This document shows, in pieces, positions 2,729 to 5,108 of a DNA stretch of 64,000 nucleotides. Location of the stretch: assembly GCF_001005305.1 (NCBI RefSeq), contig NZ_LBMH01000004.1, positions 62,001 to 126,000 on the forward strand, written 5' to 3'. The notes beneath the pieces were generated by a model that was not told the origin of the DNA, made no database searches, and saw only the letters and a list, made by a program, of their open reading frames with translations. How positions within the stretch are numbered: position 1 is the first letter of the stretch; each line of letters starts with the position of its first letter. The DNA is from Kordia zhangzhouensis. GTDB taxonomy: Bacteria > Bacteroidota > Bacteroidia > Flavobacteriales > Flavobacteriaceae. The position numbers were made by a program, and so were the translations under genes.

Positions 2729-2753
2729 AAAAGCTCCCTTTTTGGGAGCTTTT
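2729..2753. terminator. bidirectional rho-independent terminator
   Basis: AAAAGCTCCC, loop TTTTT, GGGAGCTTTT, with a T run after it on the plus strand and an A run before it. It can end both pepD (plus) and the precursor peptide gene whose stop lies at 2758 (minus). Confidence 0.85.
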
Positions 2754-2757
2754 TTTA

Positions 2758-2982
2758 TTAACAGTTTAGCCAACTTCCGCCGCAGTCACCACAATTAGAA
2801 TATGATAAATTTGTAGTGTCTGGTTGTTGAGGAGGGATTGGGTCACAGCCTTGCTGACTGATACAACCTTTATCCATTGTCACCATTGTGAGTGTAGTTG
2901 GTGCGCCTCCATGTACTAATTTAGCTTCTAAAGCAGAAATTGTTTGTTTTTTTAAACCTAACGTTTTACGTTGTTTTTTCAT
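2758..2982 (-). CDS. GG-leader RiPP precursor peptide, class I lanthipeptide-like (copy 1)
   Basis: A 74-residue peptide. Residues 1-26 form a basic, helical leader (MKKQRKTLGLKKQTISALEA, then KLVHGG) ending in a double-glycine site at 25-26, as in leaders cut by C39 peptidase ABC transporters. The 48-residue core is rich in Thr/Ser near its start (APTTLTMVTM) and has five Cys, the last residue being Cys. This fits the Bacteroidetes class I lanthipeptide-like precursor families, where LanB-type enzymes would dehydrate Ser/Thr and Cys would close rings. Two relatives follow at 3168-3359 and 3465-3695 with the same leader plan. No modification or export gene is in the window, so the chemical class is inferred from leader and core alone. 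Confidence 0.8.
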   Translation of the reverse strand: MKKQRKTLGLKKQTISALEAKLVHGGAPTTLTMVTMDKGCISQQGCDPIPPQQPDTTNLSYSNCGDCGGSWLNC

Positions 2983-3007
2983 GAGATATGTATTTTTTGT
3001 TTCATTG

Positions 3008-3074
3008 CAAAGATGAAGCAGTCAATGAAACCTTAAAACAGGAAAAGAAATAAGAAAGTAACCGTGTTTTTCCT
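3008..3074 (-). promoter_or_regulatory. promoter and upstream box of precursor copy 1
   Basis: On the minus strand the -7 element is CATCTTTG (3008-3015). After an 18-base spacer comes TTTTA as the -33 element (3034-3038), and 24 bases further up the box AGGAAAAACACG (3063-3074). The two sister genes have the same three parts at nearly identical spacing. Confidence 0.7.
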
Positions 3075-3125
3075 TAAGAAATTTTACAAAGCATATTCAC
3101 CAGAATCTATTTAAAGAAAATTTAT

Positions 3126-3162
3126 AAAAAAAAGGCTGTCCAATATGTTGGACAGCTTTTTT
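3126..3162. terminator. bidirectional hairpin terminator between precursor copies 1 and 2
   Basis: GCTGTCCAA (3135-3143), loop TATG, TTGGACAGC (3148-3156), flanked by an A run on the left and a T run on the right. On the minus strand it lies just after the stop of precursor copy 2 (3168), so each precursor gene seems to be a separate transcript. Confidence 0.8.
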
Positions 3163-3167
3163 AATTT

Positions 3168-3359
3168 TTAACAACTTCTTAGTGTTAGTTTGATAGGTTC
3201 TTGTGGTTTGCAATCCAGATCTTTTTTGGATAAAATACACATGTTGAAAGGTTTCGTCCAACAATAAGCTGAATCTGCTCCACCTTTTACTCCGTTTTCG
3301 TTTTCAAACTTTACTAAATTGATTTTGTTCAAGTTTAATTTTTTGATTTGTTTTTTCAT
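3168..3359 (-). CDS. GG-leader RiPP precursor peptide (copy 2)
   Basis: A 63-residue peptide with leader MKKQIKKLNLNKINLVKFEN plus ENGVKGG, the double glycine being residues 26-27. The 36-residue core has four Cys and ends in Cys, as in the two sister peptides, but has fewer Ser/Thr. Leader features shared with the neighbours are the MKKQ start, alternating Leu/Lys pattern and GG end; the cores do not resemble each other. It has its own promoter and terminator. Lanthipeptide-like is the best guess; a disulphide-bonded or otherwise modified bacteriocin-like peptide remains possible. Confidence 0.75.
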   Translation of the reverse strand: MKKQIKKLNLNKINLVKFENENGVKGGADSAYCWTKPFNMCILSKKDLDCKPQEPIKLTLRSC

Positions 3360-3383
3360 AAAATGATATTTTTTGTTTCAATG

Positions 3384-3450
3384 CAAATATCATTCAGAGT
3401 ACAACATCTCAAAACAGGAAAAAATATGTAACTATCAGCGTGTTTTTCCT
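3384..3450 (-). promoter_or_regulatory. promoter and upstream box of precursor copy 2
   Basis: On the minus strand: -7 GATATTTG (3384-3391), 18-base spacer, -33 TTTTG (3410-3414), 24-base spacer, AGGAAAAACACG (3439-3450). The short leader region after the -7 element resembles that of copy 1 (ATGAAACAAAAAATA against TTGAAACAAAAAATA), pointing to duplication. Confidence 0.7.
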
Positions 3451-3464
3451 GAAAATAAACATAT

Positions 3465-3695
3465 TTAACAAATATATGTTGGAGGTTGAGTTGTTGGACA
3501 GCATACAGAAGCGGCTGTAATTATAGGACAATCAATAATAATTGATTCACAATTAACCTGAACAGAGATACACGTTGGACGAATGGTAACAATCGGAATT
3601 GTGAGAGTTGTTATAGCTCCACCTTGAACTTGTTTTTCTGAAAGAGAAGAAATTTTTTGTTTTCGAAGTTGTAATGAAATCTTTTGTTTTTTCAT
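3465..3695 (-). CDS. GG-leader RiPP precursor peptide (copy 3)
   Basis: A 76-residue peptide with leader MKKQKISLQLRKQKISSLSE plus KQVQGG (GG at 25-26) and a 50-residue core. The core begins AITTLTIPIVTI, close to APTTLTMVTM of copy 1, and contains six Cys including a CC pair and a terminal Cys, with many Thr, Ile and Pro. The Thr-rich core and Cys are what a class I lanthipeptide needs. First gene of the tandem set on the minus strand, with its own promoter. No LanB, LanC, C39 transporter or immunity gene is adjacent; such enzymes would have to be encoded elsewhere in the genome. Confidence 0.8.
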   Translation of the reverse strand: MKKQKISLQLRKQKISSLSEKQVQGGAITTLTIPIVTIRPTCISVQVNCESIIIDCPIITAASVCCPTTQPPTYIC

Positions 3696-3717: not shown

Positions 3718-3783
3718 CAAATATCAGAAGAGGTTCTGAAATAGAAAAGAGGCGAAATACGTTATTTATTCCGTGTTTTTCCT
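3718..3783 (-). promoter_or_regulatory. promoter and upstream box of precursor copy 3
   Basis: On the minus strand: -7 GATATTTG (3718-3725), 18-base spacer, TTTTC (3744-3748), 23-base spacer, AGGAAAAACACG (3772-3783). The -7 element equals that of copy 2 exactly. Confidence 0.7.
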
Positions 3784-3899: not shown

Positions 3900-5108
3900 T
3901 TATTCAGCAATATCTACAATTTCTAAATCGAAGATTAAGTTAGAATTTGGAGGAATTGGGCCATTAGGTCTTGAGCCATACCCTAAGAATGAAGGGATAA
4001 AAACTCTTGCTTTTTCACCAACTTCCATGCGTAATACGGCTTCTTTAAAACCAGGAACTAATTGCGCGCTTGTGTTGTACACAGAAGCGAAAGGCTTGTA
4101 TGCGCCACGATGATCAGCTACTTCATTATATATTTCTCCTTCTTGTGCAACTTCTTTGATATTAGTGTAAAAAAGTTTTCCGTTTTCCAAATAACCTGCG
4201 CAGGAAATATTTACACGATCAGTTGATTTTGGGGTAACACCAGAACCTTTTTTGGTTGTAATCATGACCATTCCTGTTGGTGATTCATAAAAATCATCTC
4301 CTAAATCTTTGTTCTTTTCTTTAAACTCTTTTGCAGAAAGTTTTGCTTGCTCTTTCTTCTCTTCCAATTGTTTGTCGATGATTGACTGGTGTCTTTCGGC
4401 TAATTTTGGCTCTAATTCTTCAAATACTTTCACAGCGTCAAATGCTTTGGCATCTTTTCCTTTACGGATGATGTTTACTTCTTGTAAAATCACATCTTCT
4501 TCAGGTTTGTTTCCCATACCAACTTTTACGTTCGAAATACTATCTTGAATATTGATTCCTTCTACCAATTGCCCAAAAACAGAGTGACAACTCACACCTC
4601 GTGGTTGTTCACAAGGTTTTATATTTCCATTTGCGTCAAAAGCATCCAAACTCGGATACGGAACTTCCGTAATAAAGAACTGACTTCCATTCGTGCCCAA
4701 TCCACCAGAATTTGCCATCGATAATACACCTGGCTTGTCATGTAGTAAGTTTACATCAAACTCACTCATAAAGCGGAAACCAGGGTTTCCACGTCCAGTT
4801 CCTGTTTGATCACCTGTTTGAATCATAAATTTGTCCATGACTCTATGGAATATAACACCATTATAATACGGTTTTCCTTTCAATGAGTCGGCTAGTTTAG
4901 GGTGTGTTCCTTCAGCTAGAGCGACAAAGTTAGCTACAGTAACCGGAACTTCTTTGTAAAATAGCTTGGCAAGCATCGTTCCTTTGCTAGTCTTAATTTC
5001 AGCATACAATCCATTTTCTAATTTGGAGTCTTGTGCGCTTGTGCAGGAAATAAAGGTTGTTGCAATAATAGCAACAAGCATAGTCATTTTTGTAAATAAT
5101 CCTTTCAT
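3900..5108 (-). CDS. two-domain peptidyl-prolyl isomerase lipoprotein (cyclophilin plus FKBP)
   Basis: A 402-residue exported foldase carrying two unrelated proline isomerase folds. The N-terminus (MKGLFTKMTMLVAIIATTF, then ISC) is a lipoprotein signal with Cys22. Residues about 33-215 form a cyclophilin domain with the FHRVMDKFMIQTGD and NGSQFFIT active-site blocks. A charged helical linker follows (about 230-275). Residues about 290-402 form an FKBP domain (VPGFKEAVLRM, GYGSRPNGPIPPNSNLIFDLE). It is the last gene of an operon, two bases after gldI. The expected place of action is the periplasmic side of a membrane, helping envelope proteins fold. Confidence 0.9.
   Translation of the reverse strand: MKGLFTKMTMLVAIIATTFISCTSAQDSKLENGLYAEIKTSKGTMLAKLFYKEVPVTVANFVALAEGTHPKLADSLKGKPYYNGVIFHRVMDKFMIQTGDQTGTGRGNPGFRFMSEFDVNLLHDKPGVLSMANSGGLGTNGSQFFITEVPYPSLDAFDANGNIKPCEQPRGVSCHSVFGQLVEGINIQDSISNVKVGMGNKPEEDVILQEVNIIRKGKDAKAFDAVKVFEELEPKLAERHQSIIDKQLEEKKEQAKLSAKEFKEKNKDLGDDFYESPTGMVMITTKKGSGVTPKSTDRVNISCAGYLENGKLFYTNIKEVAQEGEIYNEVADHRGAYKPFASVYNTSAQLVPGFKEAVLRMEVGEKARVFIPSFLGYGSRPNGPIPPNSNLIFDLEIVDIAE

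Follow-up and report, generated by a model that had tools for sequence, protein, structure and literature searches.

Three small genes of Kordia zhangzhouensis belong to a dispersed library of probable class I lanthipeptide precursors

Described lanthipeptide libraries and the peptide genes of the window

The closest described system is that of the prochlorosins (ProcA/ProcM) of marine picocyanobacteria, in which many precursors with one GG leader and variable cores are served by a promiscuous enzyme (PMC12328550, PMC10783134), with 29 precursors at discovery (PMC12328550). In the Bacteroidetes, class I LanA precursors have been described with an LxLxKx5L motif in a leader ending in GG, and with a C39 protease encoded in the cluster (Walker et al. 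2020, PMC7268733); dehydration in class I depends on glutamyl-tRNA (PMC9993889). The TrRiPP survey reports up to 176 RiPP precursors per Bacteroidota genome, illustrates both lanthipeptide and rSAM peptides by the example of Kordia, and mentions a LanC with a nucleotidyltransferase near Kordia precursors (PMC11118758). A lanthipeptide cluster was found by antiSMASH in K. antarctica (PMC7477175), and Kordia stands out in the number of its clusters (PMC7477175, PMC10734526). These papers are cited throughout from part of their text.

The DNA analysed here (hereafter the window) is a stretch of 64,000 nucleotides from Kordia zhangzhouensis (contig NZ_LBMH01000004.1, positions 62,001 to 126,000), and the genome around it comprises 4.03 Mb in 43 contigs. 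Three adjacent small ORFs on the minus strand of the window encode precursor peptide 1 (2758..2982; 74 aa, leader 1-26, core of 48 aa with 5 Cys), precursor peptide 2 (3168..3359; 63 aa, leader 1-27, core of 36 aa with 4 Cys) and precursor peptide 3 (3465..3695; 76 aa, leader 1-26, core of 50 aa with 6 Cys). An earlier note, made from the sequence alone, had read them as three genes with one leader plan and differing cores. From the ORFs we could confirm that all three peptides start with MKKQ, have a leader ending in GG (residues 25-26, 26-27 and 25-26, respectively) and end in Cys, and that the cores differ, also in their Cys number. The Thr-rich core starts noticed in copies 1 and 3 are present as well (APTTLTMVT and AITTLTIPIVT). 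Regarding the Leu/Lys pattern proposed for the leaders, LxLxKx5L is exact in peptides 1 and 3 but not in peptide 2, where the last L is F. The leaders thus resemble those of the LanA precursors of Walker et al. (2020) in their GG and, for two of the three, in the motif, and the cores contain Ser/Thr together with Cys, as LanA cores do.

The three genes are flanked by an ORF at 1257-2720, which we take to be a peptidase gene, and by another at 3900-5108, presumably a peptidyl-prolyl isomerase gene, both named from their sequence rather than by family search. A terminator-like hairpin lies between the peptidase gene and peptide 1 (2730..2757), and a hairpin with a T-run, possibly a terminator, directly follows peptide 2 (3133..3158, minus strand); both were read by eye and left unscored.

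By searching Pfam with the three peptides, we found no match at E≤10, and a known non-RiPP family was rejected as their origin on that ground. In NCBIfam, peptide 3 alone had matches: two leader models for class I lanthipeptides, each below threshold. The model NF038153 (lant_leader_L1a), which describes the same leader type, gave 19.6 bits for peptide 3 against a cut-off of 22 and did not match peptides 1 and 2, so that none of the three reaches 22 bits. A match to a non-RiPP family, which the earlier note had named as an argument against its own proposal, was therefore not found, the curated matches being only lanthipeptide leader models below their cut-off. The same note had seen no LanB, LanC, C39 transporter or immunity gene in the window, and indeed none of the genome's matches to Lant_dehydr_N, Lant_dehydr_C, LANC_like and Peptidase_C39 falls within the window. 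The one set of LanB, LanC and protease/exporter is found on another contig, C12.

One leader, many cores and a single LanB cluster

To define the leader family, leaders were selected by a regular expression on the leader only, Cys and core composition being unused in the selection, and 76 leaders of this genome, including those of the window, were aligned into a profile (A1). Peptides 1, 2 and 3 score E = 6.7e-10, 3.2e-07 and 6.3e-10 against it, all three being in its seed. When the best 150 of 211 candidates were scored, the genome contained at least 134 matches at E≤1, of which 76 are the profile's own seed, and at least 120 at E≤0.001. The shared consensus is MKKxxxKKLxLxKxxISxLxxxxxxGG. 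The peptides of the window are three of more than 100 such genes, a scale that the earlier note had missed. We analysed 127 of the 134 listed matches, leaving out 7 without a usable cut; all 127 reach a stop codon, one of them without an ATG, and their cleavage site is GG in 124 and GA in 3. When genes less than 1.5 kb apart were merged, the 127 genes formed 89 loci on 15 contigs, 66 of these loci being single genes. A looser search with NF038153 gave 84 matches in the genome, 12 of which pass the cut-off (2 of these needing neighbours in frame to do so); among 14 control genomes, loose matches occurred in 5 and matches over the cut-off in none. Two tandem precursors on contig C22 (L012:1215-1761, 634.5-635.0 kb) have cores made of CPIET/CPQTL-type repeats with 8 and 9 Cys, and one library copy, at position 188486 of contig C39, is degenerate or truncated.

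The cores share a composition rather than a sequence. A Ser or Thr stands N-terminal to a Cys in 127/127 analysed cores, whose median length is 37 residues and which contain up to 10 Cys. Their residues are Cys at 11.7%, Thr at 12.1% and Ser at 6.9%, compared with 0.6%, 6.0% and 6.1% in 32 long ORFs of the window, and with 3.3%, 5.2% and 10.5% in 80 small window ORFs (45-110 aa), which are mostly not genes. The 58 listed matches outside the A1 seed include 55 complete ORFs, with GG in 47 and none in 8, and each of the 47 GG cores contains Cys, at 11.4%. BLAST of the 127 cores against each other resolved them into 111 families, 99 of them with a single member, which together with the 89 loci and the conserved leader gives the picture of a library of scattered precursors. 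Regarding the window, the core of peptide 2 has a paralogue in the same genome (contig C39:71917, 69% identity over 36 aa), the end of the peptide 1 core resembles that of C8:47106 (72% over 18 aa), and the peptide 3 core has no relative among the 127 analysed cores.

The earlier note would have given up its proposal if the genome held no LanB-like or other RiPP enzyme and the three genes were not transcribed, and it had considered that the enzymes might act in trans on class I lanthipeptide-like precursors. A genome devoid of RiPP enzymes could be rejected, since LanB, LanC and a C39 exporter are clustered on contig C12, with a same-leader precursor inside the cluster, which supports the proposal. 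There, the only Lant_dehydr_N and Lant_dehydr_C matches of the genome adjoin each other, LanB being encoded as two proteins (LanB-N and LanB-C), with LanC before and the C39 exporter after them. Over 20 kb, the order is ECF sigma factor, TPR protein, LanC, LanB-N, LanB-C, TPR/AraC regulator and two small ORFs, followed on the opposite strand by HlyD and the C39-ABC transporter. One of the two small ORFs is a typical precursor with a library-type leader, which scores 21.1 against NF038153 (cut-off 22). Among solved structures, both LanB proteins are closest to 9g04, a thiopeptide-type bacteriocin biosynthesis protein, with NisB behind, and LanB-C matches TIGR03891, a model of thiopeptide-type bacteriocin biosynthesis proteins. 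LanC matches 8byk and, more weakly, NisC, and in alignment with 8byk it retains WCYG and CHG, presumably the zinc ligands. The match of the exporter to C39 peptide transporters, 4ry2 among them, spans the whole protein. The closest LanBs are all from Kordia (86-89%), the next being at 66%. In the LanB clusters of eight other Kordia loci (L080-L086 and L097), a resident precursor starting with MKK.KLG was seen by eye in 8/8, and the resident core carries NDPTCNTQAILSC, or nearly so, in 6/8, while the dispersed cores are variable.

Only 2 of the 134 listed matches are closer than about 12 kb to LanB, the other 132 being farther away or on other contigs, whereas the precursors of Walker et al. 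(2020), in the part of that paper cited here, are those of clusters, with which the Kordia system shares the C39 gene in the cluster (PMC7268733). With the prochlorosins, the library would share the role of one enzyme, and it shares many precursors, a conserved GG leader, variable cores and genes that are single or in tandem. However, prochlorosins depend on a class II LanM and a Nif11-type leader, in contrast to the class I split LanB and LanC and the LxLxKx5L-type leader found here in Bacteroidota, and their 29 precursors at discovery compare with at least 120 in Kordia. The open frames that contain the genome's three LANC_like matches measure 369-426 aa, less than a LanM would need. Given the absence of LanM and the different leader, the Kordia system is not a member of the prochlorosins.

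The two other LanC matches have neighbours of their own. On contig C1 (L185:3570-8480, around 105.6-110.5 kb), a class V-like set consists of a kinase-like ORF (359 aa, recognised by eye), a HopA1 family protein and a LanC, preceded by a 310-aa ORF of GPTGTQGC-type Thr/Cys repeats, a possible substrate. On contig C12 (L171:1361-3209, around 70.4-72.2 kb), a third LanC-like gene, which matches just the first half of the family, adjoins a nucleotidyltransferase gene and the library precursor C12:72241, a LanC/nucleotidyltransferase pairing of the kind that the TrRiPP survey mentions for Kordia (PMC11118758).

Leader and LanB across genomes and the fate of the window slot

Comparison with precursor families of other flavobacteria, a check put forward in the earlier note, was made in 299 genomes of the family, scoring the best 28 candidates per genome against A1 with a cut-off of E≤1e-4. 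The same leader was found in 14 of the 299 genomes, 13 of which have a LanB. A LanB match was present in 25 genomes, in one of them (G276) only as a fragment, so that the leader occurs in 13/25 LanB-bearing genomes compared with 1/274 without LanB (G190), while 12/25 LanB-bearing genomes had no A1 match at this cut-off. Fisher's test of leader against LanB gives p = 3.7e-15, a value that overstates independence because the genomes are related; also, A1 was built from the leaders of this genome and favours its near relatives. Two of the 13 genomes with both are Kordia, and in 8 of the 11 others LanB has a leader no more than 5 kb away, the exceptions being G288, G195 and G102.

In addition, one or more leader genes (E≤0.01) are present at 19 of 20 LanB loci from named records, including 8/8 from Kordia, and the single locus without a leader is an 8-kb Aminicenantes contig. 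Each of 11 Kordia genomes has exactly one LanB match and between 120 and at least 150 leader matches (E≤0.001); for four of them, the number is at least 150 among the best 150 of 311-438 candidates scored. The named Kordia loci and the Kordia genomes overlap, and these two counts are therefore not independent of each other. In another genus of the family, G288 and G077 have at least 27 and at least 12 scattered leaders (E≤1e-4), respectively, with one LanB match each. Dispersion of the leaders is not confined to Kordia.

Taking these observations together, we consider it likely that the genes of the window encode class I lanthipeptide-type precursors within a library of more than 100 dispersed precursors that one enzyme set would serve in trans. 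Several observations count against it: 12 of the 25 LanB-bearing genomes have no A1 match at E≤1e-4 and G190 has one without LanB, NF038153 passes over peptides 1 and 2, both LanB proteins are nearer to 9g04 than to NisB, and the genome has the class V-like set and a third LanC-like gene besides. Alternatively, the dispersed peptides could be Cys-rich GG-leader peptides that are cut and exported by C39 without LanB and fold by disulfides, with LanB modifying only the precursors of its own cluster. A C39 exporter requires just a GG leader, cores with up to 10 Cys would suit such folds, and the LanB clusters do hold precursors of their own. However, a single profile matches the leaders of dispersed and cluster-resident precursors, leaders at E≤1e-4 are nearly confined to LanB-bearing genomes (among the best 28 candidates each), and Thr is doubled in the cores, which disulfides alone do not explain. 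We regard this alternative as rather unlikely. It is still less probable that another RiPP enzyme set of the genome modifies the library, such as the class V-like HopA1/kinase/LanC set on contig C1: such a set does exist, but no library leader was found in the surrounding 16 kb (E 0.2 at best), the Thr/Cys-repeat ORF beside it looks like a substrate of its own, and it is with LanB that the leader occurs at 19 of the 20 named loci.

We then compared the slot occupied by the window genes, between the peptidase and peptidyl-prolyl isomerase genes, in the 10 other Kordia genomes. All of them have leader genes there, 1-3 each and 24 ORFs in total. This recurrence, and the contrast between at least 134 A1 matches in this genome and a match in just 1/274 genomes without LanB, show the leader resemblance to be more than chance. 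Orthologues, assigned by eye, of peptide 1 were recognised in 9/10 of these genomes and full-length orthologues of peptide 3 in 7/10 (one more being truncated, and several of these assignments resting mainly on the leader), while for peptide 2 no counterpart was recognised by eye at the slot in any of the 10. The two orthologue groups took in 16 of the 24 ORFs, leaving out one ORF of G303, two of G302 (one truncated), two of G307, one of G299 and two of G301 (one degenerate); also left out was G305's weak match (E 0.051), which lies outside the slot. Leader identity is 72-75% in both groups, compared with core identities of 56% (peptide 1 group) and 35% (peptide 3 group), the cores being rich in gaps. 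For leaders the pN/pS ratio is 0.32, for cores 0.54-0.62; these are rough estimates in that pS is high and uncorrected and the core alignments are uncertain. Values below 1 suggest that leader and core are both maintained as protein. Together, these comparisons suggest that the slot genes are kept as coding sequences while their cores change fast.

Upstream of the genes, we looked for shared elements. By an exact 12-mer search, AGGAAAAACACG was found upstream of all three genes, about 80 bases from the start codon: at 3063..3074 for peptide 1, 3439..3450 for peptide 2 and 3772..3783 for peptide 3, each time on the minus strand. Its presence before each of the window genes suggests local duplication. 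The genome has 6 exact copies, including these 3, and 52 copies at up to one mismatch versus 113 for the reversed control, so that a genome-wide regulon element was rejected. We see in AGGAAAAACACG a local, probably duplicated, part of a promoter.

A motif search of the precursor upstreams also yielded a palindrome, TAcGGtNNNNCCgTA, for which a matrix was trained on the upstreams of this genome and a site defined as a score of at least 13. A site lies 55-85 bases before the start in 22 of the 127 precursors (for instance C40:131919 and C43:120470). It is present in 4 of 27 upstreams from other Kordia genomes, all at 55-85 bases, compared with 13 of 2000 random pieces of the window (binomial p 2.8e-5, with relatedness ignored, the 27 being upstreams of the best-scoring leaders and some being orthologous to each other). 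A site precedes just one of the window genes, that of peptide 3; it scores 13.1 and lies at 112 bases, outside the 55-85 spacing. At the LanB cluster of this genome no site exceeds 11.2, and of 8 further LanB loci from Kordia, L086 alone has a score above 13, at a distance of about 7 kb from LanB. In a second pass, the motif search gave just T-rich patterns (gamma 0.99) without a fixed position.

That the library would consist mostly of decaying duplicates with few productive genes, as the damaged slot copies of G302 and G301, the copy at contig C39:188486 and the restriction of the positioned palindrome to 22/127 precursors might indicate, is the least probable reading, given that 127 of the 134 listed matches are open to a stop with a usable cleavage site, all but one with an ATG, and that in both orthologue groups neither leader nor core reaches a pN/pS of 1.

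Proposed processing and meaning of the library

In class I and GG-leader systems in general, the chain from leader to LanB, LanC and C39 is established. What the sequences show for the library is its genes and leader family, the composition of its cores, their conservation and the co-occurrence of leader and LanB; binding, dehydration, cyclisation and export we infer along the same lines, and any ecological role would be an inference too. The shared leader would be bound by the one split LanB, of which LanB-N would glutamylate core Thr and Ser and LanB-C would eliminate, leaving dehydro residues. LanC would then couple these to core Cys as (methyl)lanthionine rings, and the C39-peptidase ABC exporter with HlyD would cut after GG and export the product. 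With one conserved handle, a single enzyme set acting in trans could process very different cores, and cores would be gained, lost and altered quickly.

The richness of Kordia in RiPPs has already been published in the 2024 survey (PMC11118758), and abundance as such is thus not new. In the part of its text cited here, that survey makes no connection between a single LanB and a dispersed library with one leader, nor does it compare leaders and cores across species, and the Kordia genome surveys (PMC7477175, PMC10734526), in the part cited, give cluster counts with no mention of dispersed precursors. A literature search, with supplements, most subscription papers and preprints outside its scope, found no account of this library with its one leader, one LanB, dispersion, co-occurrence and turnover of cores across species. 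On balance, and with somewhat less confidence than for the reading of the window genes as members of an in-trans library, we favour the view that the Kordia library surpasses in size every other one-enzyme lanthipeptide library recognised to date, and that it is the first such library in class I. In it, one split LanB/LanC/C39 set would serve 120 to well above 150 dispersed precursors in each genome, and syntenic slots would be fixed stations at which the leader stays and the core is rewritten between species.

Combinatorial lanthipeptide biosynthesis is best known from the class II enzymes of picocyanobacteria. Its biological function in these organisms is still called unknown, according to the part of PMC10783134 cited here. 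A class I, tRNA-dependent system of such size, in a marine genus with cultured species, would be an independent case. Genome mining that starts from enzyme clusters would probably overlook most of the precursors in this genome. The Kordia library lets one ask how one dehydratase would tolerate more than 100 cores, which roles the peptides may have and how such a library evolves.
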